Program-made: the position numbers and the translations under genes
Notes under the pieces: generated by a model
What the model saw: only the letters and a program-made list of their open reading frames with translations
Databases searched by the model: none
Told to the model about the DNA's origin: nothing
Assembly: GCF_021021415.1 (NCBI RefSeq)
Contig: NZ_JAINWJ010000028.1
Location: 1-50,098 of the forward strand
Source of the DNA: Martelella mediterranea
GTDB taxonomy: Bacteria > Pseudomonadota > Alphaproteobacteria > Rhizobiales > Rhizobiaceae
Direction: 5' to 3'
Length of the DNA stretch: 50,098 nt
Shown here: positions 34,855 through 50,098 of the stretch, piece after piece
Layout of the letters: each line of letters opens with the position of its first letter
Numbering within the stretch: the stretch's first letter is position 1

Positions 34855-36999
34855 TCAGAATGACAGGCCGAGGCTCGCGAACCAACCTTGCGCCCTGTCA
34901 TCGCCGCCCAGGCGCGCGCGGTACTGCACATTGAGGTCGATATGCGACATCGGCGCCTCGTACTTGTTTTCGCGGAACCAGTAGCTGAGCTTGAGGCCGG
35001 GGCCGGCACCAAGCGCGAATTCATTGGCGTCGGTGCTGTTATAGTCTGCGGCGATCCCGAGATAAGGCGTAAGCACGAATTTTCCGTCGTCGCCGCCAAG
35101 CTTGAAGCTGCGCCCCAGCTGGGCGTAACCGTCGGCGAAGTTCTGGTTGCTTTCGAGATAGCGCCCGACCTCGCCGAAATACTGACCGGTCCACCATGAG
35201 GACATTGCCGGCATCAGGTCTGTATTGAAGCCGCCGGAGATCGCCGCCCGCAGCAGGTAATCGTCACGGCTGTCGCGCCCGATCTTGAAGTAGCGCGCGC
35301 CCTCGACAATGAAATTGTAATCGGAGAAAGGCTTGATCCGGATTCCCACCGCACCCTGCATGGTCGACGCGCCGATCGGACCGTCGAGCGAATCATAAAG
35401 GGTGGTGAACTGGCGCAGAAACAGGTCGACCGTGCGCCCGTCGCGATAGCCGAACATCGGCGGTCGCCAGTATATTTCCGTTCCCACCTGCATCACCTCA
35501 CCGGCGGAGGCCGCCGGAGACAGATAGCCATCCGAGATGCCGCTGGTGCCATAGATCACGCTGGCATAGGCGCCCCACTGGCGCGAGACGTCGCCGATCT
35601 GGCGGCGGAGGTTGAAGCGTTCGGTTTCGGAAAGCGGAAAGACGCCGGCATCGGCCTGGTCGATCGCCTGCTTGAAAAGGCCGACCGCTTCTTCATTGCG
35701 ATAGTCCCTGACGGCGGCGTAGCCTGCGTCAATCAGTTGCGCGCCCCGCAACTGTCCCTGATCATAGGCATCCTTGAAGGACTGATAGGCGATGTCCTTA
35801 TTGCCGACGCTTGCGGCAAGATAGGCAATATCGGCGGAACCAAGCGGCGCGAGCGCGCCCTCCTCCGAGGCCTCGGCAAACATCGCCCTCGCCTGCCGCT
35901 TACCGTCCTGCGCGGCGGCAAGCCTTATTTCCGCCGCGGCAACGTCCGCCCGTTCGGCCTCGCTTGCTGCCAGAGCGCCGGCCCGGTCGAGCGCGCGGCC
36001 GGCGGCGGCGTAATCCGCCATCGCGGTCAAGGCAGTGCCGCGCTGCAGCCAGACGCCGTAACCGGCATCATCTCCGAGCGGCTGCAGCGTCCGGTAGGCC
36101 AGCAAAGGGTCGGAGGTCGCCATCGCGGCGGCGGCGAGGTCCAGCCTGAACTGGCGCTCGGCGCCCGCTGGACCGGGAAGCTCCAGCGCGCGCGAAAAAT
36201 CGGCGAGCGCCGCGGTCTGGTCGCCGCTCTTCTGTTCCAGCACGCCGCGCCGGCGCAGAAGCTCGCGGTTGTCTCCAAGCGCTGCGATCGCCTGATCCGT
36301 CGCCGCCAGCGCGGCGGCGGTGTCGCTCTGGCCGTTCAGCAGGTCGATCAGCAGCAGGCGGAATGACAGATTGCCGGGCGCAAGCCGGACGGCCTCGCGG
36401 GCATGGTCGACAGCGCTTGCCAGATCGCCCTTGCGCTGGGCGGCGTAGGCCGCGTCGGCCTGCCGGTCGGCAGGGCTTGCCTTCTGGGCTGGCGGCCGGC
36501 TCGCCGCCGCCTCGGCATTCTTCAGAAGCGTGCGATAGTCGGCATTGTCCGGCGCCAGCTCCACAGCCTTCCTGGCCTGATCCACGGCCTTCCGGTACTG
36601 GCCCGCGGCATAGGCCTTGTAGGCCGCATCCGCGGCCTCATAGACGGGGCTCGTTTCCGAAACGCCGCCGCTTGCCGCGTTCTTATTATTTTCCAGGTCG
36701 CGCGCGGCCTCGGCATTCTTCAGCAGGGTCTTGTAGGCCTCATGATCGGGCGCAAGTTCAACGGCCTTCCTGGCCTCCTCCACCGCCGTGTCATAATCGC
36801 CCGCGCCATAGGCCCGATAGGCAGCATCGGCTGCCTGATAGGCTGGACTGCTCTGCGAGAGCGGCGGCGGAGACTGGTCGTCGGCCAGAACGGAGGGCGC
36901 AGCCAATGAGAGCGCGATCGCCGCAACCGCCGCCGACAGGGCGAGCCGGGACACGGCGTTGCGGAATGGGCGTTTCGTGTTTGTCGCTGCCATGTTCAA
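34855..36999 (-). CDS. NfrA-like outer-membrane glycan export protein (TPR plus beta-barrel)
   Basis: A 714-residue precursor. A signal peptide (about 1-39, LSAAVAAIALSLAAPSVLA) is followed by helical TPR/Sel-like repeats from about 51 to 450, including two near-identical 49-residue units. The C-terminal part (about 470-714) has the alternating pattern of a beta-barrel and ends in Phe (FASLGLSF), matching the C-terminal domain of the phage N4 adsorption protein NfrA. In E. coli NfrA is the outer-membrane partner of the glycosyltransferase NfrB. BcsC/PgaA-type exporters have the same layout, so export of a polysaccharide made by the upstream glycosyltransferase is the inferred role. The start shares ATGA with the nfrB-like stop (36996-36999). 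Confidence 0.82.
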   Translation of the reverse strand: MNMAATNTKRPFRNAVSRLALSAAVAAIALSLAAPSVLADDQSPPPLSQSSPAYQAADAAYRAYGAGDYDTAVEEARKAVELAPDHEAYKTLLKNAEAARDLENNKNAASGGVSETSPVYEAADAAYKAYAAGQYRKAVDQARKAVELAPDNADYRTLLKNAEAAASRPPAQKASPADRQADAAYAAQRKGDLASAVDHAREAVRLAPGNLSFRLLLIDLLNGQSDTAAALAATDQAIAALGDNRELLRRRGVLEQKSGDQTAALADFSRALELPGPAGAERQFRLDLAAAAMATSDPLLAYRTLQPLGDDAGYGVWLQRGTALTAMADYAAAGRALDRAGALAASEAERADVAAAEIRLAAAQDGKRQARAMFAEASEEGALAPLGSADIAYLAASVGNKDIAYQSFKDAYDQGQLRGAQLIDAGYAAVRDYRNEEAVGLFKQAIDQADAGVFPLSETERFNLRRQIGDVSRQWGAYASVIYGTSGISDGYLSPAASAGEVMQVGTEIYWRPPMFGYRDGRTVDLFLRQFTTLYDSLDGPIGASTMQGAVGIRIKPFSDYNFIVEGARYFKIGRDSRDDYLLRAAISGGFNTDLMPAMSSWWTGQYFGEVGRYLESNQNFADGYAQLGRSFKLGGDDGKFVLTPYLGIAADYNSTDANEFALGAGPGLKLSYWFRENKYEAPMSHIDLNVQYRARLGGDDRAQGWFASLGLSF
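36505..36849 (-). repeat. Internal duplication in the NfrA-like gene
   Basis: Residues 51-99 (coding bases 36703-36849) and 117-165 (36505-36651) are two copies of one 49-residue helical unit with 36 of 49 positions identical; both end TLLKNAEAA. A weaker third unit follows near residues 178-215. This is recent intragenic amplification of a TPR-type module, expected to lengthen the periplasmic superhelix. Confidence 0.85.
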
Positions 37000-39176
37000 A
37001 TCGCCTTTCCGGCAACAGTTTGGAGTGGCGAGAGCTTCCGGTTCTCGCGCAATCGCTCGATCCTGCGGCGCTGCTCGACCAGCGCATCCTCGATCGCCGG
37101 GCTAAAGACCACATCCCGGGCGGCGAGATAGGCGCCGATCAGCCCGTCGCGCTGGGGAGAATAGTCCGCAAGCGCCGCCCGCAGCGCTTCCGGGGAGATA
37201 TCGCCTCGTTCAACGAGAATATCGCCAAGGCGCGGCAACGCGTCATTGGGAAGGAGCGAAACACGCCTGCCATCCGCGACATCGCGTTTGCAAAGAAGGT
37301 CCAGACCCGCCTTGATCTGGCTGTCGCGGACAACGCAGACTTTCGGCCTTTCGCCGCACGCCGCGACGATCTCGGCGAGCGCCTGCGGCTCCGGCGGCAC
37401 CGCCGTTGCCAGCATCAAGCACCCGTCCCTGGCGTCCTGCACCGGAAGGACGCGCAAGCGAACACAGAGATCGGTGGAAAGCCGACCGCGGGCGTTCAGC
37501 ACATCGTCCTCCGAGATCGCCCGCATCTCGTAACCCGTCTGAAAAGCCACGGCTTCGGCGATCACCTCCTCCTGAAGCCAGCCTTCATCGATCAGGATAC
37601 GACCGAGCGGGCGGCGCTGCTGCCGTTGCTTGGCGAGCGCCTCATCAAGCTGGGCGTCGTCGATCGCCTGCCAGGTGACGAGCAGATCGCCGAGCCTGGC
37701 GCTGCGCTCCACCAGCCCGTCGCCGGAGGGAAAGTCATGCATGGTCTTGTCCCAGACCAGCCGCTTGCCGGTCACGAGGTGGGTGACATACTGCTTGAGC
37801 GCGCGCGCCATCGCCATGAAGTTCACGAAATTGCCGACGACCATGCGCGGGATCGACAGCAATCCATGCTCCCAGCCGAAAGTCCGCGACGTGAAATAGA
37901 AGCGCTGCACGACCCGCGCCACCAGCGCAATGGCGTTCAGGATCAGCACGACACCGACCCAGCCGTGAACCGAAAGCAGCGGCGGATATGTCGTGGTAAA
38001 CAGGCCGAAGCTGATGGCGAAATGGAAAACGATATACTGGAGCGCCAGCAGATAGGCGAAAACGGTGACGAAGCTGGTGACGATCGCCTTCCTGTCCCTG
38101 AGCAGGAAATAGCGGTCGACCAGCGAACCATACCAGCCGAAATAGGCCCAGCCCTGGAAGCAGATGCCAAGCGACCACCGCGCCTTCTGGCGATAGGAGG
38201 TGCGGAACCTGTTGGGAAAATATTCCTGCACGCAAAGCGGCATCCGGACAGTCTTCTCGCGCTCCGGCCCGAAGCCGAACCAGCTCTTGCGCCGCATTTT
38301 ATAATCGACGGTAAACCGCGCCAGGATCGAGCGCATGCCGTGTTCGGCAAGGCGCACCCCGATATCGTAATCCTCGGTGAGCGTCTGGGTGTTGAAGGGC
38401 TGATTGTCGGTCTCGGCCGAAAGGATCAGCAGCGCCTTGCGCGAGAAACATGTCCCCACGCCGGCGGACGGCACCATCCCTGACAAGGCCTCGCGCACGA
38501 CGATATCCTTCCCGTGCCATTCGGCGAACTCATCCATGTATACGCCCGCCACGAGCTCGTACCAGTTGCGCTCCAGCGAGTTCACAGGAATCTGGATCAG
38601 GTCGATCCGCGGCAGCAGGTAGTTGAAGAAACGCAGCTCCAGCGGATGAAGAACGTCCTCGCTGTCGTGCAGAATGGTGCCCGCGAATGTGATGCCGTGC
38701 GTCTTCTCATGGGCGAAAATCGCCTGTACCACCCAGTTGAGGCAATCCGCCTTGCAGGTCGGCCCGTCATGGGGAACCTCGACGCGCACAAGCTGGCGGT
38801 AGCGCTTGCGCATCCGCTCGACCTCGTCGATCGTGGCGCGGTCGTTGCGATAAGTACCGACGAAAATCGTGTAGTTCCGATAGTCGAGCGTGCGCACCAT
38901 GCCTTCGATCATGGCCGCGATCACGTCGTGCTCCAGCCAGGCAGGCACCATGATCGCCATATGCTGTTCGGGGCGGTTATAAAGCTGTTCCGGCTGAAGC
39001 GGCTGGTAGTGGTGCTTCCTGGCCGCGAACCGCCGCTTGATCGCCCGCGCATAGAAAATCGCGTCGATGAAAAGATCGTCGAGACACGACAGCAGGATGA
39101 TCACCGCGACGATCGCGGTGAAATCCTCCAGCAGCCGATAATAGTCGGCGAACAGGAATGGCCAGTAAAGCTGCAT
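36996..39176 (-). CDS. NfrB-like processive glycosyltransferase with MshEN c-di-GMP-binding motifs
   Basis: A 726-residue inner-membrane family 2 glycosyltransferase. One N-terminal helix (about 18-38) is followed by the catalytic domain with DSED (171-174), TEDYD (267-271) and QKARW (330-334, the QxxRW motif of processive synthases), then several helices at about 363-425. After residue 490 comes the MshEN-type region. Two 24-residue motifs at 494-517 (R494-L-G, L510, L514, Q517) and 523-546 are separated by exactly 5 residues, and a second, more degenerate pair lies at 649-702. E. coli NfrB has this architecture and is controlled by c-di-GMP. ATG 39176 is preferred; the upstream in-frame 21 codons overlap the BcsB-like gene. 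Confidence 0.85.
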   Translation of the reverse strand: MQLYWPFLFADYYRLLEDFTAIVAVIILLSCLDDLFIDAIFYARAIKRRFAARKHHYQPLQPEQLYNRPEQHMAIMVPAWLEHDVIAAMIEGMVRTLDYRNYTIFVGTYRNDRATIDEVERMRKRYRQLVRVEVPHDGPTCKADCLNWVVQAIFAHEKTHGITFAGTILHDSEDVLHPLELRFFNYLLPRIDLIQIPVNSLERNWYELVAGVYMDEFAEWHGKDIVVREALSGMVPSAGVGTCFSRKALLILSAETDNQPFNTQTLTEDYDIGVRLAEHGMRSILARFTVDYKMRRKSWFGFGPEREKTVRMPLCVQEYFPNRFRTSYRQKARWSLGICFQGWAYFGWYGSLVDRYFLLRDRKAIVTSFVTVFAYLLALQYIVFHFAISFGLFTTTYPPLLSVHGWVGVVLILNAIALVARVVQRFYFTSRTFGWEHGLLSIPRMVVGNFVNFMAMARALKQYVTHLVTGKRLVWDKTMHDFPSGDGLVERSARLGDLLVTWQAIDDAQLDEALAKQRQQRRPLGRILIDEGWLQEEVIAEAVAFQTGYEMRAISEDDVLNARGRLSTDLCVRLRVLPVQDARDGCLMLATAVPPEPQALAEIVAACGERPKVCVVRDSQIKAGLDLLCKRDVADGRRVSLLPNDALPRLGDILVERGDISPEALRAALADYSPQRDGLIGAYLAARDVVFSPAIEDALVEQRRRIERLRENRKLSPLQTVAGKAI

Positions 39177-39186
39177 GATTGTCGGC

Positions 39187-41430
39187 CTAGTCCCGCTTGT
39201 CCCGGTTCCTGCGGCGCGCGATACCGGCCAGCAGGACAAGAACGATGAAGCCGCCGATGATCAGCGTGGTGAGCGCCCATGGCGCCTGCTCCAGCCAGAA
39301 TTTCGGGCTCGTGATCAGACGCAGCGTCGACCCGTTGCTTTCGTCGAGCGGCGCACCGGAGGCGGCATAGACCGTGCTGCCACTGGCATTCAGCGCCGTC
39401 AGAACACCGCTTTCGCCGATGATGGCGACATCGCCCCGGCCGAAGCTGAACGGCTTGCCAAGATCGGCCCCGGCGCCGACCGTGCGATAGTAAAGGCCCG
39501 GCTGGCTCTGGTCGAGCACGGCCTCGGCGACCGAAACGTCCGAAAGCCCGGCGGCATCGAAAAGCCGCTCGCCGCGCGCGGAGTCGATCGTGATCTTGTC
39601 GCCCGTGACGCTGACGCGATCCGCACCCTTTTCGGGCGCTATATCGAAGAACAGGAAGGGCTTGTCAGGCACCGGCGCCGTAACCGTATCGACGACCGCG
39701 AATTCGGCGCGCGCCGGCGCGATGCCCGCGGCATCGGCCACGCCCATCACCGTCGGCAGCGTCTCCAGCGCATCGTCGAGCCATGCCGCCGGCACGGCGA
39801 CCTCGCTGTCGCCCGCCAGCTTCGCCACAAGCGTGGTGAAACCATCGGCGGCGGGCGCGTCCTTGAACACGACGCGGCTATCCGGCAGCACCGCGACGGG
39901 ATAGGCCTGCGGAACTTCACGACAGTGGTCGCTCGCGGGCTGGCGCTGGAATTCGACATTGATGACATTGCGCGGCAGCAGCGTATAGGCGGGTATGGCG
40001 ACTGAAATCTGTTCGGGCGTACCGTCGGCCTTCAATTGCTTCGCGCCCAGCAGATAGCCGTTGATCGAAACCGAGGCGACGGGCCGTGTCGCCGTCGCGC
40101 CGGGAGCCGCCGAGACATTGAGCTCGAGGTGGCTCGGCACTTTTCCGGGCGCAGCCGTGCCGAGGTCGAATTGCGTCGACCAATCGCCCCGTGCAACGAC
40201 ATCAAGCTGACTTGGCGCCTTGCCGAGCGCACCGAGCGCAATGGCGTCGCCCGCCCCCGGCGGCATCGCCGCAGCGGCAAGCGTAAGGTCTCCCGACACC
40301 GCCGACTGACGCCATAACGTATCGAACAGGCCGACCGCGGCATTGGCCGCATCCGGCGCAACCGCGATGACCGGCCGGCCCGAAAGCGTGCGCAGCCCGA
40401 CGGTTTGCGAGCCGACGGGTTGGCCAAGCGCGTTGAAATCCTGCCGGATGGTCGCGACAGCAGCGGAAGCGGCGCCATCGGCGGCGACGATTTCCGCCGA
40501 AACGGCATCGAGCGCGGCTTTCAACTGCTCAGCCATCGCGCCGTCGGCAACGGCAATATCGGCGCTGAATTGCGGGGCGTCGAGCAGCATCAGCGCGCCG
40601 ATCTCGGCTTCGCTGGCAATCTGCACCTCGCCGCCGCCCGCAAGGCTCTTGAACGCCGGAACGCCGGCAAGCGATGGCGGCACCGTCAGCGCGGCGGTGT
40701 CGATCCGGTCGCCAACCTTCGGCAGGGCGATGGTCCTGACGGTCTTGCCGTCGCGCTGCAGCGCGGTTCCGAGGCGCCATGCGGCGTCATAGCTGTTCTT
40801 GTCGAGGCGGCTTCCCGAAACCAGCAGTGTCACCTCCGTGGGAAGCGCCGACCATGCCGTGCTGATATCCTTCACCGCGGAGGCGGCATAGCCATATTCC
40901 AGATAGGTGTCGGGCTCGATCTCGAGCATGTTGCCGATCGGCCGCGCATCGTCGCAATAATATTGCCCGGTGGCGGAAGACCAGTTCACCTTCAGATGAA
41001 CGAAACCGTTGTCGCGGGCCGCGCCGTCGATGCCGATGCTGGTATCTGCCGCGCCGCCATCATCCGTCGGCGAGCGCGCAAGCAGCACGCGATCGTCAGC
41101 CGACAGCGTATAGGTGGTCTGTCCGCCATCCGCCCGCAGGTAACGGCCTTCGAAATTAAGCGTGGGGTCGATCAGTTCGACGCCCGCCGGAACGGGAATA
41201 TAGATATCGCGTTCGGCCCCGGTCGATCCAAGCGCCACCGGCGTGCCGATGCCGAGTTCCTCCAGCGTGACCTTGCGCGTGATCACCCGATCCTTGGTCC
41301 CGGCCGCAAGCGTATCGGCGATGGCGCCGGCATGGCTCTCCTGCGGAACCAGCAGGACCGGCGCCACCGTGCCCGCAAGAAGGGTGGCGATCATGGCGTT
41401 CCTGGACAGGGCGGTTTTGGTGTTCTTCAT
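39187..41430 (-). CDS. BcsB-like periplasmic polysaccharide synthase subunit
   Basis: A 747-residue protein of the BcsB family. A signal peptide (about 1-34, ending ESHAGA) is followed by a long periplasmic region of beta-sandwich carbohydrate-binding-like and flavodoxin-like domains. One C-terminal transmembrane anchor (WALTTLIIGGFIVLVLLAGI) with a basic cytoplasmic end (RRRNRDKRD) completes it. BcsB guides the nascent polymer from the synthase through the periplasm in cellulose systems. Here there is no bcsA with PilZ; the neighbour is the NfrB-like synthase, 10 bases downstream. The start overlaps the wecB stop by 4 bases. The cellulose-specific name would be misleading. Confidence 0.82.
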   Translation of the reverse strand: MKNTKTALSRNAMIATLLAGTVAPVLLVPQESHAGAIADTLAAGTKDRVITRKVTLEELGIGTPVALGSTGAERDIYIPVPAGVELIDPTLNFEGRYLRADGGQTTYTLSADDRVLLARSPTDDGGAADTSIGIDGAARDNGFVHLKVNWSSATGQYYCDDARPIGNMLEIEPDTYLEYGYAASAVKDISTAWSALPTEVTLLVSGSRLDKNSYDAAWRLGTALQRDGKTVRTIALPKVGDRIDTAALTVPPSLAGVPAFKSLAGGGEVQIASEAEIGALMLLDAPQFSADIAVADGAMAEQLKAALDAVSAEIVAADGAASAAVATIRQDFNALGQPVGSQTVGLRTLSGRPVIAVAPDAANAAVGLFDTLWRQSAVSGDLTLAAAAMPPGAGDAIALGALGKAPSQLDVVARGDWSTQFDLGTAAPGKVPSHLELNVSAAPGATATRPVASVSINGYLLGAKQLKADGTPEQISVAIPAYTLLPRNVINVEFQRQPASDHCREVPQAYPVAVLPDSRVVFKDAPAADGFTTLVAKLAGDSEVAVPAAWLDDALETLPTVMGVADAAGIAPARAEFAVVDTVTAPVPDKPFLFFDIAPEKGADRVSVTGDKITIDSARGERLFDAAGLSDVSVAEAVLDQSQPGLYYRTVGAGADLGKPFSFGRGDVAIIGESGVLTALNASGSTVYAASGAPLDESNGSTLRLITSPKFWLEQAPWALTTLIIGGFIVLVLLAGIARRRNRDKRD

Positions 41431-42626
41431 TTCGTGGCAGTCCTCAAGGAAACAGCGCGCAGGTGGCGCGGGCGGGCATGCGGGGCAGCCTCCGCTGCGA
41501 AGGGAATGACGGCGCGTCCGGCAAGCGTATCGACGATGCGCTGCGCGGCCTTGCCGTCGCCATAGGGATTGATCGCGGCGGATTGGAGCGCATGGGCTCG
41601 GGGATCGTCCAGAAGGTGCACGACCTCGCGCATGATCCTCGCGGTATCGGTTCCGACCAGTTTCACCGTACCGGCCGCAACCGCCTCCGGTCGCTCGGTG
41701 ACGTCGCGCATCACCAGGACGGGTTTTCCAAGCGAAGGCGCCTCCTCCTGCACGCCGCCCGAATCGGTCAGGATGATATGGGACCGCTCCATCAGATAAA
41801 CGAATTCGAGATAGGCCTGCGGCGCGATCAGGTGCACGTTGCTCAGGCCGCCCAGCATATCCTGGACCGGCCCCGCGACATTGGGGTTCAGATGCACGGG
41901 ATAGACGATCTGCAAGTCCTCGCGCCGGGCAAGTTCCCGCAACGCCTTGCAGATATTGATGAAACCGCCGCCGAAACTCTCGCGACGATGCCCGGTGACC
42001 AGCAGGGTCTTCAGCTTAGAATCCAGAAACGGAAAATCGGCGTCCAGCCGGGCCCCGAGGGCCGCGTCGCCGCGAATGCGGGCCGCAACCTCCGTCAGCG
42101 CATCGATCACCGTATTGCCGGTGACGACGACCCTGCCCTGAAGATGCTCGCCCGCGAGATTGCGCGCACTCGAAAGCGTCGGCGCGAAATGATAGGCCGA
42201 GACGACATCTATGACGCGGCGGTTCATTTCTTCGGGCCAGGGCTTCGAAAGATCATAGGTTCTCAGCCCCGCCTCGACATGCCCGACGGCAATGCCGCGG
42301 TGGAAGGCGGCAATGCCCGCCGCCATTGCCGTGGTCGTATCGCCATGGACAAGGACGACATCAGGCCGCGCCTGCTCAAGCACCTGGTCGAGACCGGCGA
42401 TCATCTTCGCGCTGAGCGCATTCAGCCCCTGGTTGGGCGCCATGACCGCAAGATCGAAATCCGGCTCGATTGCGAAAAGCGACAGCACCTGATCAAGCAT
42501 GCTGCGATGCTGGCCGGTAACACAAACCTCAGTTGTGATAGCGCTATCACACTTCAGCACATTGACCACCGGAGCCATCTTTATGGCCTCCGGGCGGGTG
42601 CCGAAAACACAGAGAATCCTGGTCAA
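41427..42626 (-). CDS. wecB: UDP-N-acetylglucosamine 2-epimerase (non-hydrolysing)
   Basis: Converts UDP-GlcNAc to UDP-ManNAc in the cytoplasm. The 399-residue protein opens TRILCVFGTRPEAIKMAPVV and contains VHGDTTTAMA, HVEAGLRT, PEEMNRRVID, VTGHRRESFG and the C-terminal DSGGVQEEAPSLGKPVLVMR, all standard for WecB/MnaA. I place the start at a TTG (42626-42624), because GGAGTAAG lies 6 bases upstream and the family begins there; the frame remains open to 42869, with unlike sequence. First gene of the operon, overlapping the BcsB-like gene by 4 bases. As the precursor source for a ManNAc glycan it mirrors the wecB requirement reported for the E. coli NfrAB glycan. Confidence 0.9.
   Translation of the reverse strand: MTRILCVFGTRPEAIKMAPVVNVLKCDSAITTEVCVTGQHRSMLDQVLSLFAIEPDFDLAVMAPNQGLNALSAKMIAGLDQVLEQARPDVVLVHGDTTTAMAAGIAAFHRGIAVGHVEAGLRTYDLSKPWPEEMNRRVIDVVSAYHFAPTLSSARNLAGEHLQGRVVVTGNTVIDALTEVAARIRGDAALGARLDADFPFLDSKLKTLLVTGHRRESFGGGFINICKALRELARREDLQIVYPVHLNPNVAGPVQDMLGGLSNVHLIAPQAYLEFVYLMERSHIILTDSGGVQEEAPSLGKPVLVMRDVTERPEAVAAGTVKLVGTDTARIMREVVHLLDDPRAHALQSAAINPYGDGKAAQRIVDTLAGRAVIPFAAEAAPHARPRHLRAVSLRTATK
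42534..42551. promoter_or_regulatory. Perfect 18-bp palindrome, LacI-family type operator, inside wecB
   Basis: TGTGATAGCGCTATCACA reads identically on both strands. Its core fits the TGWNANCGNTNWCA pattern of LacI/GalR-family operators, with the central CG. It lies in codons about 26-31 of wecB, 75-92 bases downstream of the chosen TTG. Binding there could block elongation or act on a promoter overlapping the gene start. No LacI-type gene is present in the window. Confidence 0.55.
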
Positions 42627-42917
42627 GCTCTTACTCCGATTCAAAACAGATGATTCCGGTGAGCCCGGATTGGGAGACCCTGCTATTGGGGAAACGTGTC
42701 TTTTGTGCGGGTTACTTTTTGTTAACCTTCCACATTGGGCGTCGGAAATCGCCACCAGATCGGAAGCCGGCAAAAGCTCGCGCCAGACCGTGGGTCTCGC
42801 AGGCGAAACAGGGTTGTGGCGTCGTGGACGAAAATCGGGCAAGGTGAGCCACGAGCAACCAAAGGCCAACCAAACCGGCTTTCAAGTACGTGCCGGCGTC
42901 TCAAGCAAGCAGGTCCC

Positions 42918-43466
42918 ATGGCGCATTTCATCAAAGACTCGATCACCTTCATCGAACCTTACCTCCACCACTACGGACTGCTCGCGCTCTTCATCATCAT
43001 CTATCTGGAATCGCTCGGCGCGCCGATGCCGGGCGAAAGCGCATTGATCGGCGCTTCGTTGCTGGCGGCAGACGGACAGCTATCGATCGTGGGCATCTTC
43101 TTCGTCGTTGTCTGCGCCGCCGTGATGGGGGACAGCACCGGTTATCTGATCGGCCGGTTTGGCGGACGGGCGCTGATCCTGCGCTATGGACGCTTCGTGG
43201 GCATGACGGAGGACCGCCAGAAATGGATCGAAGGCCTTTATGAGAAACGCGGTGCCTGGGTCGTTGCCGGCGCCCGCTTCGTCGTCATCCTGAGGCAACT
43301 GAATGGAATCGCGGCGGGCTCCATGGGGATGCGCTGGCCGCCCTTTCTCGCCGCCAATATCGCCGGCGGGCTTTTGTGGGCCGCGGTCTGGACCATCGGA
43401 CCCTATATGTTCGGCGACGTCATCGCCGAGCGCCTGCATCTCCCCTTGCACGGAGCGCCGTCGTGA
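42918..43466 (+). CDS. DedA family membrane protein
   Basis: A 182-residue inner-membrane protein. Family features are LESLGAPMPGESALIGASLLA (helix-loop near 32-52), the reentrant GDSTGYLIGRFGG segment and RFVVILRQLNGIAAGSMGM with the conserved arginine. DedA proteins act as lipid scramblases/flippases for carriers such as undecaprenyl phosphate or for phosphatidylethanolamine, and support membrane potential. The gene is divergent from the wecB operon with 291 bases between starts, so a link to glycan carrier recycling is conceivable. ATG 42918 was chosen over the longer open frame because the family begins just before the first helix. Confidence 0.88.
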   Translation: MAHFIKDSITFIEPYLHHYGLLALFIIIYLESLGAPMPGESALIGASLLAADGQLSIVGIFFVVVCAAVMGDSTGYLIGRFGGRALILRYGRFVGMTEDRQKWIEGLYEKRGAWVVAGARFVVILRQLNGIAAGSMGMRWPPFLAANIAGGLLWAAVWTIGPYMFGDVIAERLHLPLHGAPS

Positions 43467-44123: not shown

Positions 44124-44885
44124 ATGACCGACGATCTGTGGGCGCTGCTTCTCGCGTTACGGCGCGGCGCTGTAAGCGCACCGCCCTTATCCGGTCCCGC
44201 AGGCGCGCTCTACGGGCCCATCGCTACCGCCTCGGGGCAATTCGTTCTGGCGCAGGTCGGCCAGTCTCTGGACGGACGGGTGGCGACGCCTTCGGGGGAT
44301 GCGCGGGACATTTCGGGGCCGGAGGGCCTGGCGCATCTGCATCGATGTCGCGCACTGGTCGATGCCGTCATAGTCGGTGAGAACACCGTCAGTTGCGATG
44401 ATCCGCGCCTTTCCGTGCGCCTTGTCGACGGCCCCGATCCCGTGCGTGTGGTCATTGACTGCCACGGGCGGCTTACCGGGTCGGAAGGCCTGCTCCATGA
44501 CGGCGGCGCGCAGGTGATCGTCTTTCAGAGCGCCGAGACAAGCCGCAACGATCTTCCGAATGCCGAGATCATTCGTCTTCGCCCCACGGGAAACGGCCTC
44601 GCACCGCAGGAGATGCTGGCGGCGCTGTCGGAATTTGGGCTGCGGCGCGTGCTGGTCGAGGGCGGCGCGCGCACGATTGCCCGCTTCATCGAGGCCGGAC
44701 TGGTCGACCGGCTTCATGTCGCGGTTTCGCCGCTGATCATCGGCTCGGGCCCGAGCGGAATTGCCCTGTCCCCGATCGAACGCCTTTCAAGCGCGCTTCG
44801 GCCAGAGGCACAGGTTTACAGTCTGGGCAGCGACATCCTGTTCGATTGCCCGCTCAAGCCAGTTATCAAGCCGGAAGGGCAATGA
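44124..44885 (+). CDS. RibD C-terminal-domain reductase (stand-alone)
   Basis: A 253-residue NADPH-dependent reductase of the RibD_C/dihydrofolate-reductase-like fold. Visible are FVLAQVGQSLDGRVA (40-54), AVIVGENTVSCDDPRLSVR (81-99) and the C-terminal RRVLVEGGARTIARFIEAGL with VDRLHVAVSPLIIGSG. The cytidine-deaminase-like domain of bifunctional RibD is missing. Family members reduce the ribose of the RibA-derived diaminopyrimidine to ribityl. It lies at the end of a cluster with RibA, a PTPS-like protein and tailoring enzymes. The ATG at 44124 is preferred; GTG 44103 is possible. Its last 20 bases overlap the convergent methyltransferase gene. Confidence 0.8.
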   Translation: MTDDLWALLLALRRGAVSAPPLSGPAGALYGPIATASGQFVLAQVGQSLDGRVATPSGDARDISGPEGLAHLHRCRALVDAVIVGENTVSCDDPRLSVRLVDGPDPVRVVIDCHGRLTGSEGLLHDGGAQVIVFQSAETSRNDLPNAEIIRLRPTGNGLAPQEMLAALSEFGLRRVLVEGGARTIARFIEAGLVDRLHVAVSPLIIGSGPSGIALSPIERLSSALRPEAQVYSLGSDILFDCPLKPVIKPEGQ

Positions 44886-45660
44886 GATCGGTGTGGCCGA
44901 CCTCGCAGCGGCTTTCCGGCGCGGCGATGGCGGCGAGGCGGAAGGCAAGCCAGTCCTCGATCTCGGCGTCTGAATGGTACGACATCTCCCTGAGAGGCTG
45001 ACGGAGTCCCGACAGGAAGGCCTTCTGCAGGACCGCCGCCGTTCCATCCAGCCGCCATGGGCTTGGCAGTTCCTCGACCTGATAGCCTCTCGCTTCCAGC
45101 AGCCGCTCAAGACAGGCGCCCGCCGCCGGGCCGAGCGCCCTACCGAAGCCCTTGTCGGTCTGCTGGTGACGGTTGAAGGCCTCGACCATATCGTCATCGA
45201 GCGGATGACGGTGCGACCAGCGTATGATGCCGTCATAGTTCAGCGCCGCGTAGAGGCCGCAGCCTTGAGCGACGATTCGATCACAGAAAGCGACGCAGAA
45301 GTCTTCCGAAACCAGATCGAACAGCGCCGAGGCCGTTACCATTGAGACGCCTTCTAGCGGCAGGTCCTGTAGATCGTTGAGATCAAAGCGTCGAAAGGCA
45401 ACGCCTTGATTGTTTCCGATGCTGCGTTCCGCTTCTTCGAGAAGTGCCGGGTCATGGTCAAGCAGCAGCCAGCTTGTGCCTTCCGGCACATGGCTTTTCA
45501 GACTGCGCCATGTCGAGCCCGTGCCGCAGCCGATATCGGCAATCGCCGGCGCCGGCATGGCCTGCAGATAGCGCGACAGCGTGTCGATCAGAGCCGGCGC
45601 GCGGGCGGCTTTGTCCGCCGGTTCGCGCAGCGCCAGCCATTCGGTTTCAAAGCCGCTCAT
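44866..45660 (-). CDS. Class I SAM-dependent methyltransferase
   Basis: A 264-residue Rossmann methyltransferase with the SAM motif ADIGCGTGSTW (41-51) and a second motif around LLLDHDPALLEEA, then FRRFDLNDLQDLP. The substrate is unknown. It is the last gene of a minus-strand run in which its start overlaps the GT4 stop by 4 bases (45657-45660). Its 3' end overlaps the convergent RibD-like gene by 20 bases. Co-transcription with the PTPS-like and dehydrogenase genes suggests it methylates a pathway intermediate or the final product. Confidence 0.85.
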   Translation of the reverse strand: MSGFETEWLALREPADKAARAPALIDTLSRYLQAMPAPAIADIGCGTGSTWRSLKSHVPEGTSWLLLDHDPALLEEAERSIGNNQGVAFRRFDLNDLQDLPLEGVSMVTASALFDLVSEDFCVAFCDRIVAQGCGLYAALNYDGIIRWSHRHPLDDDMVEAFNRHQQTDKGFGRALGPAAGACLERLLEARGYQVEELPSPWRLDGTAAVLQKAFLSGLRQPLREMSYHSDAEIEDWLAFRLAAIAAPESRCEVGHTDLIALPA

Positions 45661-46700
45661 GCGATCGCCTCCAGTGCCGCGGAAATGGTGCGCGCCGTAT
45701 CATCCCATCCCGGCAATCTCTCGCCCGCGCGCCGCGCCGCCGCCGCCATTTCGGCGTGTAGCGCCTTGTCGGTGATCATCCTTTCGAGGGCTTCGGCAAA
45801 ACCTGCGCTGTCATCGACGGGCACCAGAATGCCGGCGTCCGATGGCACCACGTCGGGAATGGCGCCGGCGCGGCAGGCGATTACGGGCACGCCCTGCGAC
45901 AGCGCCTCGGCGAACACCATGCCATATCCCTCGTAACGGCTGGCGAGCGCGAAGATATCGGCCGCGGCAAGCAGCGCGCGGGTGTCGTCGCAGTCGCCGG
46001 CCAGCAGAATTCTGTCGTCGAGCCCGAGCGCGGCGATCTGCCGTTCGAGCGCCCGCGCGGTCGGCGCGTCCATATCCCGGCTGCCGGCAATGGTCGCTCT
46101 CCAGGGAAGGCCTTCGATCCGCTTCAGGGCATCGACCAGCACATGATGCGCCTTGCGCGGGATCAGAGAGCCGACGGAGACGATATGCGGCGGATCGCCA
46201 TCGCAGGCTGATACCGGCGCCGGATCCGTGCCGGGAAGCGCGACGGTGATGTCGTCCGACGGTATCGCGAACCCGCTGACAAGCGTTTGCGCCGTCGCTT
46301 GCGAGGTCACCACGATATGACGGACATGAGCGAGCGCCCCGCGTTCGCTTTCTCGCAAGACGGCCTGCCGATCGGCATCGAGCCCGGTTTCCAGCGCCAG
46401 CGGATGGTGCACCAGGGCCACGATCCGCAGACGCCCGGCCTCGCGGGTCGCCCAGTCGTCCAGAATGCCGAAGGCGAGCCCGTCTATCATCACCAGCGCC
46501 CCGTCCGGCAGGGCCGAGAGCAGACGTTCGGCGTTCTGCTTCACCGCCAGTTCCGGCGCGGGAAAGCCATCGCCGAGCGCCAGCAATTCCAGGTCCCAGC
46601 CAAGCGCTTCCAGCCCGGCAATCATCCGCCGGTCGTAACCATAGCCGCCGGTTCTGGTTGAAAGATCGCCGGGATAGGCAAAGACAAGCTGGGCCGTCAA
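45657..46700 (-). CDS. GT4 family glycosyltransferase
   Basis: A 347-residue GT-B retaining glycosyltransferase. The N-terminal domain has YPGDLSTRTGGYGYDRRM (glycine-rich acceptor side), and the C-terminal domain has IVSVGSLIPRKAHHVLVDAL and the GT4 motif E257-x7-E265 in SRYEGYGMVFAEALSQG. The sugar donor and acceptor cannot be read. It overlaps both neighbours by 4 bases (methyltransferase downstream, PTPS-like upstream), which ties glycosylation to this pathway rather than to general polysaccharide synthesis. Confidence 0.88.
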   Translation of the reverse strand: MTAQLVFAYPGDLSTRTGGYGYDRRMIAGLEALGWDLELLALGDGFPAPELAVKQNAERLLSALPDGALVMIDGLAFGILDDWATREAGRLRIVALVHHPLALETGLDADRQAVLRESERGALAHVRHIVVTSQATAQTLVSGFAIPSDDITVALPGTDPAPVSACDGDPPHIVSVGSLIPRKAHHVLVDALKRIEGLPWRATIAGSRDMDAPTARALERQIAALGLDDRILLAGDCDDTRALLAAADIFALASRYEGYGMVFAEALSQGVPVIACRAGAIPDVVPSDAGILVPVDDSAGFAEALERMITDKALHAEMAAAARRAGERLPGWDDTARTISAALEAIA

Positions 46701-47095
46701 AGCGCACCCTCATACCAGCCGCGGGCGGCGTGCGACTCGTGGAGGGTCACGCGGATTTTCGCGATCCGGTGGCTGCCCGGCCCGAGCTTGTTCTCGCCAA
46801 CGGCGGCAGCGAGCTGGTCGAAGATGTGTTTCGCGATCACCTCGGTGGTCGAAATCTTGCCGTTGAAGGCCTCGACCTCATCGAGATTTTGATAGTTAAG
46901 CGGCTTCAGCACTTCGGCAAGCGTTTCGGTCGCCGCACCGATATCGACGGCAAGGCCGTCATCATCGACATCCTCGGTGAAGAAGGCGGCATCGACCACG
47001 AATGTCGCGCCGTGCATGCCCTGGGCGGGACCGAACACGGGTCGGGGGAGGCTGTGGGCGATCATGATGTGATCGCGGACTTCGACTGCAAACAT
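46697..47095 (-). CDS. 6-pyruvoyl-tetrahydropterin synthase/QueD-like protein lacking key residues
   Basis: A 132-residue T-fold protein. It keeps zinc-site His14 (AHSL) and His28 (MHGA), Asp52 (VDIG) and the C-terminal Glu120 (LHES). Where QueD has C-x3-HGH, this protein has A24-Q-G-M-H28-G-A30: the catalytic cysteine and the third zinc histidine are both replaced by alanine. It therefore probably does not perform the QueD reaction. The start at 47095 (MFAVEVRDH) is preferred, since the family begins there; an in-frame ATG at 47146 exists but lies inside the upstream gene. It overlaps the GT4 start by 4 bases. Confidence 0.8.
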   Translation of the reverse strand: MFAVEVRDHIMIAHSLPRPVFGPAQGMHGATFVVDAAFFTEDVDDDGLAVDIGAATETLAEVLKPLNYQNLDEVEAFNGKISTTEVIAKHIFDQLAAAVGENKLGPGSHRIAKIRVTLHESHAARGWYEGAL

Positions 47096-47108
47096 GGCTT
47101 CTCTCTTT

Positions 47109-48107
47109 TTAGTATCGGATACGATGGCAGAGCGTTTCCGGATCATCGATGATGTCGGGATAGGTGGCGGCGATGTCCTCGAACGCGGTCTCGCCGGAGA
47201 TCAGCGCATCGAGGCGGTCGTCTTCAAGGAGCGCGATGGCCTTGGCCATACGCCGCACGAAGGTCCAGCGGGCGCGTCGCGCGGGCGGCAGCGCGCCGAC
47301 CTGTGAAGCGACGATAGAAAGCCGCTGCGAGTGGAACGCCCCGCCCAGCGGCACGGACAGTTGCCTGTCGCCATACCAGCTCGCCTCGACGAGGCGGGCC
47401 TCGAAGCCCGCGTGATCCAGCGCTTCCGCAAGCGCGTCGCCGGAGGCAGAGGCGTTGATCAGGACATCGAACTCACCATCGAGCGCGCCGCTCTCGGCAA
47501 AGGTCAGGCCGAGCCTGTCGGCAAGTGCCCGCCTCGCCGGATTGCGGTCGACCAGCACGACATCCGTGCCGATGATCGCGGTGGCGAGGAAGGCCGTCAG
47601 CGCCCCGACAACGCCAGCACCGAACACCGCCACCCGGTCGCCGGGCATGATTCCGGCATCCCAGACAATGTTGAGCGCCGTCTCCATGTTGGCGGCCAGG
47701 ATGGCGCGTTCCGGCGGCAGCGATCCCGGCAGCGGCGTGACCATGGCTTCGGCCACGACGGCCGCGCTTTGATGCGGGTGCAGGCAAAAGACGTTGCGGC
47801 CGGACAGATGTTCGGGGCCACTCTCCACGCGACCCACCAGGGCATAACCGTATTTCACCGGAAACGGAAAATCGCCCGCCATATGCGGTCCGCGCATGCG
47901 ATCGCGCTCGCTTTCGGGAACCAAACCGTTGAAAACCAGTGATTCCGTGCCCCGGCTGATGCCGCTGAAAAGCGTCCTGAGCATTACCGAACCGTCGTCG
48001 ACCACGCCGAGTTCCTCCGCTTGCAACGCGCAGGTCCGCGCCGCCGGGAACCAGAGCGCCCGCGCCGTGTGGCCCGCGCGGTCATCATCGCCAAAACTTC
48101 CCTTCAA
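47109..48107 (-). CDS. Medium-chain dehydrogenase/reductase lacking the catalytic zinc site
   Basis: A 332-residue MDR-fold protein with the nucleotide motif VFGAGVVGALTA (G163, G165, G168). Where zinc alcohol dehydrogenases have GHE, this has KYGYALVGRV (85-94), so the zinc-binding His-Glu pair is lost; the protein may act as a zinc-free reductase. The start is a TTG at 48107 with AAGGAG 9 bases upstream. It is first in the four-gene minus-strand run (13 bases before the PTPS-like gene) and diverges from ribA. Annotation pipelines would call it zinc-binding dehydrogenase, which the sequence does not support. Confidence 0.8.
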   Translation of the reverse strand: MKGSFGDDDRAGHTARALWFPAARTCALQAEELGVVDDGSVMLRTLFSGISRGTESLVFNGLVPESERDRMRGPHMAGDFPFPVKYGYALVGRVESGPEHLSGRNVFCLHPHQSAAVVAEAMVTPLPGSLPPERAILAANMETALNIVWDAGIMPGDRVAVFGAGVVGALTAFLATAIIGTDVVLVDRNPARRALADRLGLTFAESGALDGEFDVLINASASGDALAEALDHAGFEARLVEASWYGDRQLSVPLGGAFHSQRLSIVASQVGALPPARRARWTFVRRMAKAIALLEDDRLDALISGETAFEDIAATYPDIIDDPETLCHRIRY

Positions 48108-48146
48108 TTCCCGACGCTCCTTCCGGCGAACACTTTTTTGTTAAAG

Positions 48147-48169
48147 TCCAGTCGCAGCGTGCGACTGGA
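48147..48169. promoter_or_regulatory. 23-bp perfect inverted repeat in the divergent dehydrogenase/ribA promoter region
   Basis: Arms TCCAGTCGCA (48147-48156) and TGCGACTGGA (48160-48169) around GCG. It lies 40 bases upstream of the dehydrogenase TTG start and about 160 bases before ribA. There is no T-run on the exit side of either strand, so it is not a terminator. It is most likely an operator or an RNA hairpin controlling one or both arms of the cluster. Confidence 0.7.
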
Positions 48170-48207
48170 ACCAATCCACTTACGCTCTAATTACGTATTA
48201 GGTTCCA
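48166..48207. promoter_or_regulatory. Second inverted repeat TGGAACC...GGTTCCA in the same divergent region
   Basis: Arms TGGAACC (48166-48172) and GGTTCCA (48201-48207) are perfect complements separated by 28 bases. The interior contains CTAATTACGTATTAG, itself nearly symmetric. It overlaps the right arm of the 23-bp palindrome by 4 bases. It may mark a second protein-binding site and the ribA-side promoter. Confidence 0.45.
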
Positions 48208-48328
48208 ATGACTTCGACGCGCTGCCCGTCTGTGGACCGGGACGAGTCGATGATTTTGAGACAAAACGATGATGCCGCCAGGCGGCGGAATCATACGCGT
48301 GCAACATAGCAGATCAACGCAGGAACAG

Positions 48329-49426
48329 ATGGATAGGTTCAGTTTTCGAGTTTGCACCCTGGCAATGGAGATCGAACGGGCCGTCGCCGAACTGCGCTTC
48401 GGGCGCCCGGTCATTCTGGAGAGTGGCAAGAAAAAGCATGCCGTGCTGGCGCTCGATTGCGCCGCGCCGGAGACCTATGATGCCTTTGCGGCCGCAAGTG
48501 AAGATCGTCACGCGCTGTTCGTGACCGCGCAGCGGGCCCATTGCCTGGGCATTTCATCGAGCCTCGGCATCGCGGTGCCGGCGAGCACAATGTCGTTCGA
48601 TGCCGCAGCCAGGCTTTCCTATGCGCTGGATGCCAGCGCGCCGGGAGAATGGCGCGAGGCCGATCCGGCCCTATCGGCCGCCGCGGAACTGGCGCGTATG
48701 GCGCTGCTGCTGCCGGCCATGGTCTGCACGGAAATCAAGGGCATCGAGGATCGTTTCGACGCCTGTCAAGGGCTCGACTGCGCCCACCTTTCCGATGCCA
48801 GGCACGCCCGCCAGGACTTCACCGAGGTCGTGCGCACGCGGGTTCCGCTCAAAGACCTCGGCGATGCGCAGTTTGCCGTGTTTCGCGGCGGGCTTGCGCA
48901 GAAGGATCAGATCGCCATCATCGTCGGCGATCCGGATTTCAGCCGTCCGGTATCAGTGCGCATTCACTCCTCCTGCCTCACCGGCGACCTGTGCGGCTCG
49001 CTGAAATGCGATTGCGGCGACCAGTTGCGCAACGGCCTCGCCAATCTGAGGGCGGCAGGCGGCGGCGTGCTGATCTATCTCGATCAGGAAGGCCGCGGCA
49101 CCGGCATCGGCTCCAAGATGAGGGCCTATGGCTATCAGCATCAGGGCCTCGACACGATCGATGCCGACGCCGAGCTCGGTCTTGAGCCCGACCATCGCCG
49201 CTATGAGGCGGCGATCGCGATCCTGCGCCTGCTCGGCATATCGAGCGTCGTTCTGCACACCAACAACCCGACCAAGATCGCGGCGATCAATGCCTCGGGC
49301 ATAAAGGTGGTGGGGCGGATGCCGACTCATGGCAAGATCACCGCGGAGAACCTGAATTACCTGCGCACCAAGGCGTCGAAGGCCGATCACATATTCGACC
49401 CCGAAATGCTCGCGACAACGAAATAA
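48329..49426 (+). CDS. GTP cyclohydrolase II with an N-terminal extension
   Basis: Opens the imidazole ring of GTP to give 2,5-diamino-6-ribosylamino-4(3H)-pyrimidinone 5'-phosphate, formate and pyrophosphate. In the 365-residue protein the C-terminal domain is a complete RibA: RIHSSCLTGD (211-220) with zinc cysteines C216, C227 and C229, LIYLDQEGRGTGIGSKMRAY (248-267), and HTNNPTK (310-316). The first ~165 residues (IERAVAELRFGRPVILESG) faintly resemble a degenerate DHBP synthase (RibB) domain, so this is not a simple RibA. ATG 48329 follows AGGAA; ATG 48365 is an alternative. Clustering with a PTPS-like protein and tailoring enzymes suggests a specialised pathway rather than riboflavin synthesis. 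Confidence 0.88.
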   Translation: MDRFSFRVCTLAMEIERAVAELRFGRPVILESGKKKHAVLALDCAAPETYDAFAAASEDRHALFVTAQRAHCLGISSSLGIAVPASTMSFDAAARLSYALDASAPGEWREADPALSAAAELARMALLLPAMVCTEIKGIEDRFDACQGLDCAHLSDARHARQDFTEVVRTRVPLKDLGDAQFAVFRGGLAQKDQIAIIVGDPDFSRPVSVRIHSSCLTGDLCGSLKCDCGDQLRNGLANLRAAGGGVLIYLDQEGRGTGIGSKMRAYGYQHQGLDTIDADAELGLEPDHRRYEAAIAILRLLGISSVVLHTNNPTKIAAINASGIKVVGRMPTHGKITAENLNYLRTKASKADHIFDPEMLATTK

Positions 49427-49439
49427 CGCTGAGAGCCGC

Positions 49440-50098
49440 ATGACCGACAAGCCGAGCCCCGCACCGCCGCCGCACCTCAAAGCCAGCGCGTTTCTGGTGC
49501 TGGGCGTCGTGTTCGTCGCCGCGCTGGTTTTCTATCAGATGCTGGGCCCGCACCTGATGCTCGGACGGTGGGCGGTGATGTTCGCGGCGCTGCTGCTGTT
49601 TGCGATTTTCACGGTCGTTCTCAGCGCCCTTCCCTATCATCCGCACAGGTCTTTCGGCGCGGCCAACGCGATCACCGCCATCCGGACGGCGATCGTCAGC
49701 CTGGTGACGGCCTTCGTGTTTTTCGCCGCCGACATGGGCGCTCAATCGGCGGTCTGGATCCTGATCGCGCTCGTGGTGACGGCCTTCGTTCTTGATGGCT
49801 TCGATGGTTATCTCGCCCGGCGGTTCGGGCAGGAATCCGCCCTTGGCGCGCGCTTCGACATGGAGGTCGACGCGCTACTCATTCTGGTCCTGTCGGAGGC
49901 GGCCTTGATGCTGGGCAAGGCCGGGTGGTGGGTGCTGCTGATCGGGCTGATGCGCTATCTCTTCGTCGGCGCGCAGTATTTCGTGCCGGCGCTGGGCGAG
50001 CCCCTGCCGCCATCATTTCGCCGGAAGCTGATCTGCGTGGTGCAGGTGGCAACGCTGTGCGTCATCAACTCTGTTGTTCTTGATGGTCCCTTATCCTT
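49440..50098 (+). CDS. CDP-alcohol phosphatidyltransferase (runs off the right edge)
   Basis: At least 219 residues of a membrane enzyme, cut by the window. After a short Pro-rich N-terminus come helices near 17-33 and 39-58, and then the family motif D-G-Y-L-A-R-x8-G-x3-D-x3-D (starting DGFDGYLARRFG, near residues 120-145), complete with the catalytic aspartates. Such enzymes transfer a phosphatidyl or phosphoalcohol group from a CDP-activated donor to an alcohol. The gene starts 13 bases after ribA. It is not the serine enzyme, which is at 28032-28916. It may attach the pathway product to lipid or to a sugar alcohol. Confidence 0.85.
   Translation, partial: MTDKPSPAPPPHLKASAFLVLGVVFVAALVFYQMLGPHLMLGRWAVMFAALLLFAIFTVVLSALPYHPHRSFGAANAITAIRTAIVSLVTAFVFFAADMGAQSAVWILIALVVTAFVLDGFDGYLARRFGQESALGARFDMEVDALLILVLSEAALMLGKAGWWVLLIGLMRYLFVGAQYFVPALGEPLPPSFRRKLICVVQVATLCVINSVVLDGPLS

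Follow-up and report, generated by a model that had tools for sequence, protein, structure and literature searches.

The window analysed here is the entire 50,098-base contig NZ_JAINWJ010000028.1 of Martelella mediterranea, one of the contigs of a 5.4-Mb genome, and its right end, from position 44124 to the contig end, carries seven open reading frames that all hold named domains in a Pfam profile scan. They encode relatives of riboflavin and pterin enzymes together with a methyl-, a glycosyl- and a phosphatidyltransferase. A preliminary description of this DNA had placed the seven genes in tight runs leaving one divergent region, and the frames, their domains and their overlaps are all present. 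We find that the genes belong to a real, widespread and co-conserved cluster, which as a gene neighbourhood is partly already known, and we propose below a pathway for it. The features are the following (scores are from profile scans; the 113 loci are defined below):

44124..44885, plus strand: RibD_C reductase without a deaminase domain (Pfam RibD_C 135.6 bits, residues 40-220)
44866..45660, minus strand: class I S-adenosylmethionine-dependent methyltransferase (Methyltransf_25 33.4 bits; found in 102/113 loci)
45657..46700, minus strand: GT4-family glycosyltransferase (Glyco_trans_1_4 106.2 bits; found in 99/113 loci)
46697..47095, minus strand: PTPS-IV protein with the FGPAQ signature, of the 6-pyruvoyltetrahydropterin synthase (PTPS) family (PTPS 74.7 bits)
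47109..48107, minus strand: dehydrogenase of the medium-chain dehydrogenase/reductase (MDR) superfamily, BchC-like (ADH_zinc_N 26.5 bits, below the cut-off of 31.8; BchC 55 bits, cut-off 291)
48108..48268, no strand: divergent intergenic region, seen in the sequence, containing a 23-bp inverted repeat at 48147-48169
48269..49426, plus strand: RibA, a GTP cyclohydrolase II with an N-terminal extension, PRK08815 type (GTP_cyclohydro2 168.1 bits; NF006456 461.3 bits, cut-off 464)
49440..50098, plus strand: CDP-alcohol phosphatidyltransferase, truncated by the contig end (CDP-OH_P_transf 67.8 bits)

Two runs diverge from the 161-bp gap between the MDR and RibA genes, with MDR, PTPS, GT4 and methyltransferase on the minus strand and RibA and the phosphatidyltransferase, 13 bp apart, on the plus strand. 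The methyltransferase and GT4 genes overlap by 4 bp, as do GT4 and PTPS, and the ends of the methyltransferase and RibD_C genes overlap convergently by 20 bp. The PTPS-IV open frame extends to 47146, and its homologues begin at an internal methionine. The inverted repeat in the divergent gap is perfect, with 10-bp arms around a 3-base loop; it was considered as a conserved operator and rejected, because of the 24 loci compared the window alone has it, the other 23 being without it. Scans for promoters and terminators returned match numbers at chance level. Since no Rfam family reached its gathering score between 40000 and 50098, no FMN (flavin mononucleotide) riboswitch is indicated there.

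The preliminary description had regarded the cluster as incomplete to the right, and its missing part appears to lie on contig C64 of the same genome. A search of this genome with the flanking genes of a relative found a flippase-like protein (C64, 196-1092, minus strand, 57% identity) and a sulfatase-superfamily protein (C64, 1170-2801, plus strand, 60% identity). By eye, in comparison with the relatives L134 and L132, the first bases of C64 look like the C-terminal tail of the phosphatidyltransferase; the profile-scan listing holds no phosphatidyltransferase at the start of C64, this tail being too short for that scan. The two contigs thus appear to be neighbours in the genome, an adjacency that we infer because no exact overlap between 11 and 200 bases long joins their ends. 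A resistance-nodulation-division (RND) efflux gene follows the sulfatase-like gene and was taken as lying beyond the cluster. As far as can be judged from the sequence, the cluster of this genome would then comprise RibD_C, methyltransferase, GT4, PTPS, MDR, RibA, phosphatidyltransferase, flippase and sulfatase-like genes. The earlier idea of a possibly lipid-linked product is strengthened by the apparent presence of the last two genes. The window and positions 1-20000 of C64 show neither a cytochrome b561 gene nor one of the creatininase type.

The PTPS of the window carries the sequence FGPAQ, given in the accessible part of PMC5445326 as the signature of PTPS-IV within COG0720, and by this sequence it is a member of that subfamily. 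Its closest solved structure is SCO6650 of Streptomyces coelicolor (PDB 3d7j, E 6.5e-65), a PTPS-IV like that of the window and named 'uncharacterized', to which the predicted model (predicted local distance difference test score, pLDDT, 93.2) aligns with a template modelling (TM) score of 0.92. Among the 90 aligned sequences, the FGPAQ columns are kept in 89 to 90, the position of the QueD cysteine and that of the second histidine of HGH are each alanine in 90/90, and the histidine of the Asp-His pair is replaced by tyrosine in 90/90, the position of its aspartate holding Asp in 1/90 (the pair was assigned by HMMER alignment to a C. elegans PTPS). In contrast to these losses, T101, E102 and E137 are kept in all 90; we take them to be the base-anchoring residues, and the roles of the cysteine, the HGH histidine and the Asp-His pair are likewise assumed here. 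Eighty of the 90 sequences were fetched with two patterns, one of them FGPAQ[GR][ML]HG, so that the conservation of FGPAQ and of the alanine at the cysteine position in these copies is partly by design, because the pattern contains them. The alanine after HG and the tyrosine lie outside the patterns, and in the ten sequences fetched otherwise (the window and nine plasmid loci) FGPAQ occurs in nine, FGSAQ in L025, and all three changes in 10/10.

The protein had been described as PTPS/QueD-like without its cysteine. The cysteine is indeed gone, and the replacement goes further than claimed, the second HGH histidine and the Asp-His pair being changed as well. The window protein shares the fold, the T-E motif and the glutamate with QueD and PTPS types I-III, but it reads AQxxHGA where they have CxxxHGH, and Asn-Tyr instead of the Asp-His of the QueD LDH motif. 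The PTPS-II and PTPS-III motifs (CxxxxxHGH and ExxHGH) also find no match, HGA replacing HGH in 90/90. An identity as QueD was rejected on the loss of CxxxHGH and of the Asp-His pair. Moreover, a role of this protein in queuosine synthesis is unlikely, because it is the sole PTPS found in the genome and the sole queC match is partial (25.5 bits, cut-off 22; 73/210 positions, in a 567-aa frame); the earlier placement of the cluster outside queuosine synthesis therefore agrees with our data. Annotated plasmid records nevertheless label PTPS-IV proteins as 6-carboxytetrahydropterin synthase, several with a queuosine gene ontology term, and relatives of the window PTPS are encoded by at least 576 stretches of a single genome set.

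The distribution of the cluster genes was followed across 398 genomes of the phylum, among them that of the window, with an MDR profile (E 1e-40) and a PTPS-IV profile (E 1e-20). Both profiles match the identical 27 genomes, from 20 genera, and in all 27 the two matches lie no more than about 130 bp apart; one genome (G047) has an extra weak MDR match (150.7 bits) away from the cluster. The joint occurrence of MDR and PTPS-IV exceeds chance. A profile of the cluster-type RibD_C (E 1e-45) matches 25 of the 398 genomes, 24 of them with PTPS-IV, the odd one (G406) scoring 157.7 bits against at least 248.8 in the other 24, and three PTPS-IV genomes (G020, G183, G476) are without it. In G116 some 62 kb separate the cluster-type RibD_C from the PTPS, so that the co-occurrence of the two is not a mere consequence of adjacency. 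Within the window's family the PTPS is patchy: of 100 other genomes, 20 match at E 0.001, and among these the match of G029 is weak (E 2.9e-4, 25% identity). The structure model of the MDR protein (AlphaFold, pLDDT 92.3) found only generic MDR folds among the best 50 structure matches, with TM scores of 0.67-0.79.

Carriers of the cluster were found in Rhizobiaceae, Rhodobacterales, Methylosinus, on a Chromatiales plasmid, in Streptomyces and in Microbacterium, that is, in many genera of two phyla, and the genes are thus co-conserved well outside Martelella. Plasmid carriers include Agrobacterium, Rhizobium, Methylosinus, Palleronia, Thiodictyon, Streptomyces and Microbacterium. In the 80 loci fetched by the PTPS-IV patterns, the methyltransferase was seen in 76, MDR in 75, the glycosyltransferase in 69, RibD_C in 58, the phosphatidyltransferase in 38 and RibA in 37, followed by cytochrome b561 (37), an FkbM methyltransferase (35), the sulfatase-like protein (35) and the flippase (32). 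The wider set of 113 loci (the window, plasmids and genomes) adds to these 80 others that were nearly all fetched by PTPS or MDR matches; its PTPS count of 113 is by design and its neighbour counts are not, the latter being lowered where contig ends cut the loci. There, MDR is seen in 106, the methyltransferase in 102, the glycosyltransferase in 99, RibD in 84, the phosphatidyltransferase in 55, RibA in 53, b561 in 48, the flippase in 46, the sulfatase-like protein in 44, FkbM in 41 and a creatininase in 6. The 113 include two lone copies of PTPS-IV on Streptomyces plasmids (L025 12001-13427 and L112 12001-17652), with no cluster match within about 12 kb; both are near MEKHLA-domain and cupin genes, a second context for PTPS-IV. 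One contig with a Rhodobacterales-like cluster layout (L069) is labelled Aquiluna (Actinobacteria) and is perhaps mis-binned.

Further neighbours were sought as single-linkage clusters of open reading frames; broad superfamilies such as ABC ATPases were ignored and most clusters remained without identification. Frames of the inositol-monophosphatase type recur in 18/90 loci and those of the MdoH type in 19/90, one representative of each having been identified. The MdoH-type glucan glucosyltransferase lies at 6881-8704 of L085, and beside the MDR gene in Methylosinus.

The phosphatidyltransferase, flippase and sulfatase-like genes behave largely as one module. Of the 59 full-context loci, those of the 80 flanked by 8.5 kb or more on each side, 25 have all three genes, 25 have none and 9 have a mixture. 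An annotated 24-kb stretch of Methylosinus trichosporium OB3b likewise holds the core and neither phosphatidyltransferase nor flippase. The motif of CDP-alcohol phosphatidyltransferases, D..DG..AR........G...D...D, is found in 54 of the 55 cluster copies above 100 bits (G or A being allowed at the fifth place), L075 being without it. Sulfatases bear the formylglycine motif (C/S)-x-P-x-R. In the sulfatase-like protein no such motif is conserved among the columns that are at least 93% conserved in 43 homologues, which include instead ESYG, GGxSWLAH, SSHAPW and GDHQ. Identity as a sulfatase is less likely for this reason, although the window genome's copy matches PF00884 with 29.9 bits (cut-off 25), and the protein is likelier to belong to the wider alkaline-phosphatase superfamily and to act as a transferase or hydrolase; the copy of L021 has no solved relative at E 0.01.

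The RibA of the window keeps Cys236, Cys247 and Cys249, presumably the zinc ligands, and Tyr287 and Arg310, which we take to be catalytic; the counterpart of Tyr287 in the solved chain 2bz0 is residue 105. The cysteines and the arginine are kept in 41 of 42 copies (L097 is gapped) and the tyrosine in 39. In two Streptomyces plasmid clusters (L022, L114) this tyrosine is a methionine, a replacement because of which, as Spoonamore and Bandarian reportedly found in 2006, SCO6655 makes FAPy, the formylated product. Because Tyr287 is kept, the window RibA should yield directly 2,5-diamino-6-ribosylamino-pyrimidinone 5'-phosphate (APy), and in contrast to the two Streptomyces clusters no creatininase-type gene was seen alongside it within the window and C64:1-20000. 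The creatininase family is related by NCBIfam to the archaeal FAPy deformylase ArfB, but the copy compared scores 141 bits against MftE and 37 bits against ArfB, which makes MftE its nearer relative. A rule linking FAPy to creatininase was rejected: the Met-type RibA has a creatininase nearby in both loci (2/2), but so do Tyr-type enzymes (L117, L120), and L121 and L131 have a creatininase without a nearby RibA match.

The N-terminal extension claimed earlier for RibA is there, with no Pfam match at E 10, and the true start of the protein may be internal; specificity of the extended form for the cluster did not hold. The extended RibA was rejected as exclusive to PTPS-IV genomes, 197 of the 398 matching at 1e-75, and near-full-length matches without an internal stop occur in genomes without PTPS-IV, for example G433 and G276; many other such matches outside PTPS-IV genomes hold one stop codon. 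Matches of at least 400 bits occur in 17 genomes, 13 with PTPS-IV and 4 without, the latter all of family f46, genus g221. These four genomes (G187, G191, G398, G486) have a cluster-type RibA of 475-481 bits and no PTPS-IV match.

The RibD_C reductase had been described as deaminase-less, and the Pfam scan agrees, with no deaminase domain in the protein. Its nearest solved chain is 6p8c, named as an APy reductase, followed by 2azn, named as a putative aminouracil reductase. Since the protein has no deaminase and PTPS-IV keeps a 2-amino-type anchor, an undeaminated substrate seems the likelier one for this reductase.

Taken together, these data suggest one block of genes that recurs across distant bacteria and probably makes a small molecule, maybe fixed to the membrane, and not a vitamin. 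The reading that we hold tentatively, and judge to be nearly an even call, is that of a dedicated cluster diverting GTP into a non-riboflavin metabolite of the 2-aminopyrimidine or pteridine type, by the following steps. Family membership and kept residues support a GTP cyclohydrolase II, a deaminase-less RibD_C reductase and, by its CDP-alcohol phosphatidyltransferase motif, the transferase. From these, RibA would convert GTP into APy, and RibD_C, by its family and the gene content, would reduce the ribose to a ribityl chain, giving 2,5-diamino-6-ribitylamino-pyrimidinone 5'-phosphate; the 2-amino group would stay, because RibD_C would act without prior deamination. The pathway-defining step would belong to MDR and PTPS-IV, which could couple an NAD(P)H-dependent redox change to a rearrangement or ring closure by a mechanism using neither zinc nor cysteine, the base being held by the glutamate anchor of the PTPS. 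The methyltransferase and GT4 would then decorate the product. In loci with the lipid module, the phosphatidyltransferase could attach a phosphatidyl anchor to the product or to its glycoside; export of the lipid-linked product would fall to the flippase-like protein, and the sulfatase-superfamily membrane protein could add or remove a group outside. We infer the undeaminated substrate of RibD_C, the substrate of the MDR/PTPS-IV pair, the sequence in which the decorations are added and the attachment of this product to a lipid. The preliminary description had proposed a methylated, glycosylated and possibly lipid-linked ribityl-pyrimidine or pterin, an interpretation that our analysis supports, the chemistry of the product being putative.

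A related and more specific proposal sees in the product a new class of cofactor anchored in the membrane: a pteridine or ribityl-aminopyrimidine bearing methyl, sugar and phosphatidyl groups, flipped to the membrane's outer face, where it would serve as a redox carrier with b561 as partner. PTPS-IV would then be a T-fold enzyme whose zinc/Cys catalysis has given way to a new, MDR-coupled mechanism. The b561 gene present in 48 of the 113 loci may point to such a redox role, and we regard the proposal as a whole as rather unlikely.

Several observations weigh against the proposed GTP-diverting pathway. RibA is unseen in 60 of the 113 loci, some of which are cut by contig ends; a housekeeping enzyme would therefore supply APy there, or RibA would be dispensable. 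No lipid-module gene lies within about 10 kb in 25 of the 59 full-context loci, and the Streptomyces and Microbacterium clusters have the phosphatidyltransferase and flippase with no sulfatase-like match. The substrate of RibD_C is left unsettled by its sequence, because the NCBIfam bacterial RibD model scores 106.0 bits and the archaeal APy-reductase model 102.5, all below cut-off, and because the second solved chain, 2azn, bears the name of a putative aminouracil reductase. The link between creatininase and FAPy is only partly consistent with the loci and remains a hint for Streptomyces alone. The co-occurrence counts are not corrected for shared descent, and the literature search found no metabolite, mutant or assay for the cluster. 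In favour of the pathway, in the accessible part of PMC2853524, SCO6655 is listed as a GTP cyclohydrolase II whose expression opposes the predicted riboflavin flux (r -0.61), and such anticorrelated genes are treated there as candidates for secondary metabolism; however, SCO2687, another GTP cyclohydrolase II of S. coelicolor, is also anticorrelated (r -0.52).

The loci without any lipid-module gene would be accommodated by an alternative that we doubt and yet take seriously, in which the core (MDR, PTPS-IV, methyltransferase, RibD_C and mostly the glycosyltransferase) makes a soluble, possibly secreted pterin or pyrimidine, and the lipid genes serve a separate glycolipid function alongside. 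It agrees with the module being wholly missing from those 25 loci, and also with the position of the glycosyltransferase in several Rhodobacterales loci, where it lies apart from the PTPS, either by an inositol-monophosphatase-type gene (L026, L059) or near lipid genes (L069, L077). Conversely, unrelated lineages (plasmids of Streptomyces and Microbacterium, genomes L115-L120) repeatedly combine the phosphatidyltransferase and flippase with the core, and the phosphatidyltransferase divergently adjoins MDR in 19 of the 113 loci.

The weak matches of the PTPS-IV model to other T-fold pterin enzymes, for example dihydroneopterin aldolases, together with the kept base anchor, would fit a scheme in which PTPS-IV performs on APy the second half of a reaction like that of GTP cyclohydrolase I (Amadori rearrangement and ring closure to dihydroneopterin phosphate), RibD_C then reducing the pterin and the product being a modified tetrahydropterin cofactor. 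The weak matches of the RibD_C profile include dihydrofolate reductases, to which RibD_C is related, but reductases of the riboflavin pathway match the protein far better (best E 4.5e-41) than dihydrofolate reductases do (best E 1.8e-5). Pterin enzymes are only weakly excluded among the recurrent neighbours, most of the frame clusters being without identification and one (representative in L057, 8 loci) looking by eye like a short-chain dehydrogenase. We consider this scheme improbable.

That the cluster is a second riboflavin supply, or the remnant of one, seems very improbable. RibA and RibD_C do belong to families of early riboflavin steps and find their best NCBIfam models among riboflavin ones, but the genome has its own riboflavin set on contig C13, with a RibBA (DHBP synthase 273.8 bits, cyclohydrolase 216.9 bits), a deaminase-bearing RibD and RibH; because these genes lie elsewhere, the cluster is not a riboflavin operon. 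As stated in the preliminary description, no RibB, RibH, RibE or deaminase is found among the seven cluster genes, which in this differ from the riboflavin operon (ribD-ribBA-ribH) while sharing with it the GTP cyclohydrolase II and RibD_C families, and ribA and ribD do have other copies in the genome. The lack of any Rfam match nearby and the association of the cluster-type RibD_C with PTPS-IV in 24 of 25 genomes point in the same direction. A role of PTPS-IV in F420 synthesis, assigned to it in the accessible part of PMC5041015 from unpublished work, is hardly credible here and was rejected, that statement concerning an archaeal cofactor and no CofD match being found in the window's own genome.

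The re-use of riboflavin enzymes in the proposed GTP-diverting pathway has a counterpart in toxoflavin-type clusters (toxA-E), where a secondary metabolite is likewise built with a GTP cyclohydrolase II, a RibD and a methyltransferase. The preliminary description had called the cluster uncharacterised, which is true of its function, for which we found no account, whereas its neighbourhood has been in print since 2017: the accessible part of the AGeNNT article (PMC5445326) draws PTPS-IV with PF00925 and PF01872 as neighbours (cluster-node 62, 561 sequences). This group has the same signature and the same two neighbours as the window, PF00925 being glossed there as FolE2 and in Pfam as GTP cyclohydrolase II. 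For this group the accessible main text of that article gives no function and does not mention MDR, GT4, methyltransferase or lipid module. In the sources accessible to us we found neither the full composition nor the strict pairing of MDR and PTPS-IV with RibD_C, nor a lipid module that is largely all-or-none. The function of the gene set, or of the SCO genes, was not found in the literature either, which is weak evidence, most subscription journals lying outside the coverage.

Judging by the gene order of an S. fungicidicus plasmid, SCO6652 would be the methyltransferase of the cluster. In the accessible part of PMC3610822 it is up-regulated in the second mycelium, by log2 0.8 at 24 h, 4.3 at 48 h and 4.1 at 72 h, of which 48 and 72 h correspond to aerial and spore stages. 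Assigning the product would tell the function of PTPS-IV and correct many annotations; it could also explain SCO6655, the extra GTP cyclohydrolase II of Streptomyces, and may reveal a lipid-linked pteridine. The tight pairing of MDR and PTPS-IV offers a two-enzyme reaction open to in vitro work.

To the left of the cluster, positions 34855-42869 hold in a row an NfrA-like protein (TPR/NfrA_C), a GT2 glycosyltransferase with an MshEN domain (NfrB-like), a BcsB-like protein and a wecB epimerase, which together resemble a polysaccharide export set of the N4-receptor type under c-di-GMP control. The DedA/VTT-domain membrane protein encoded at 42924-43466, between wecB and the cluster, is weakly UptA-like.

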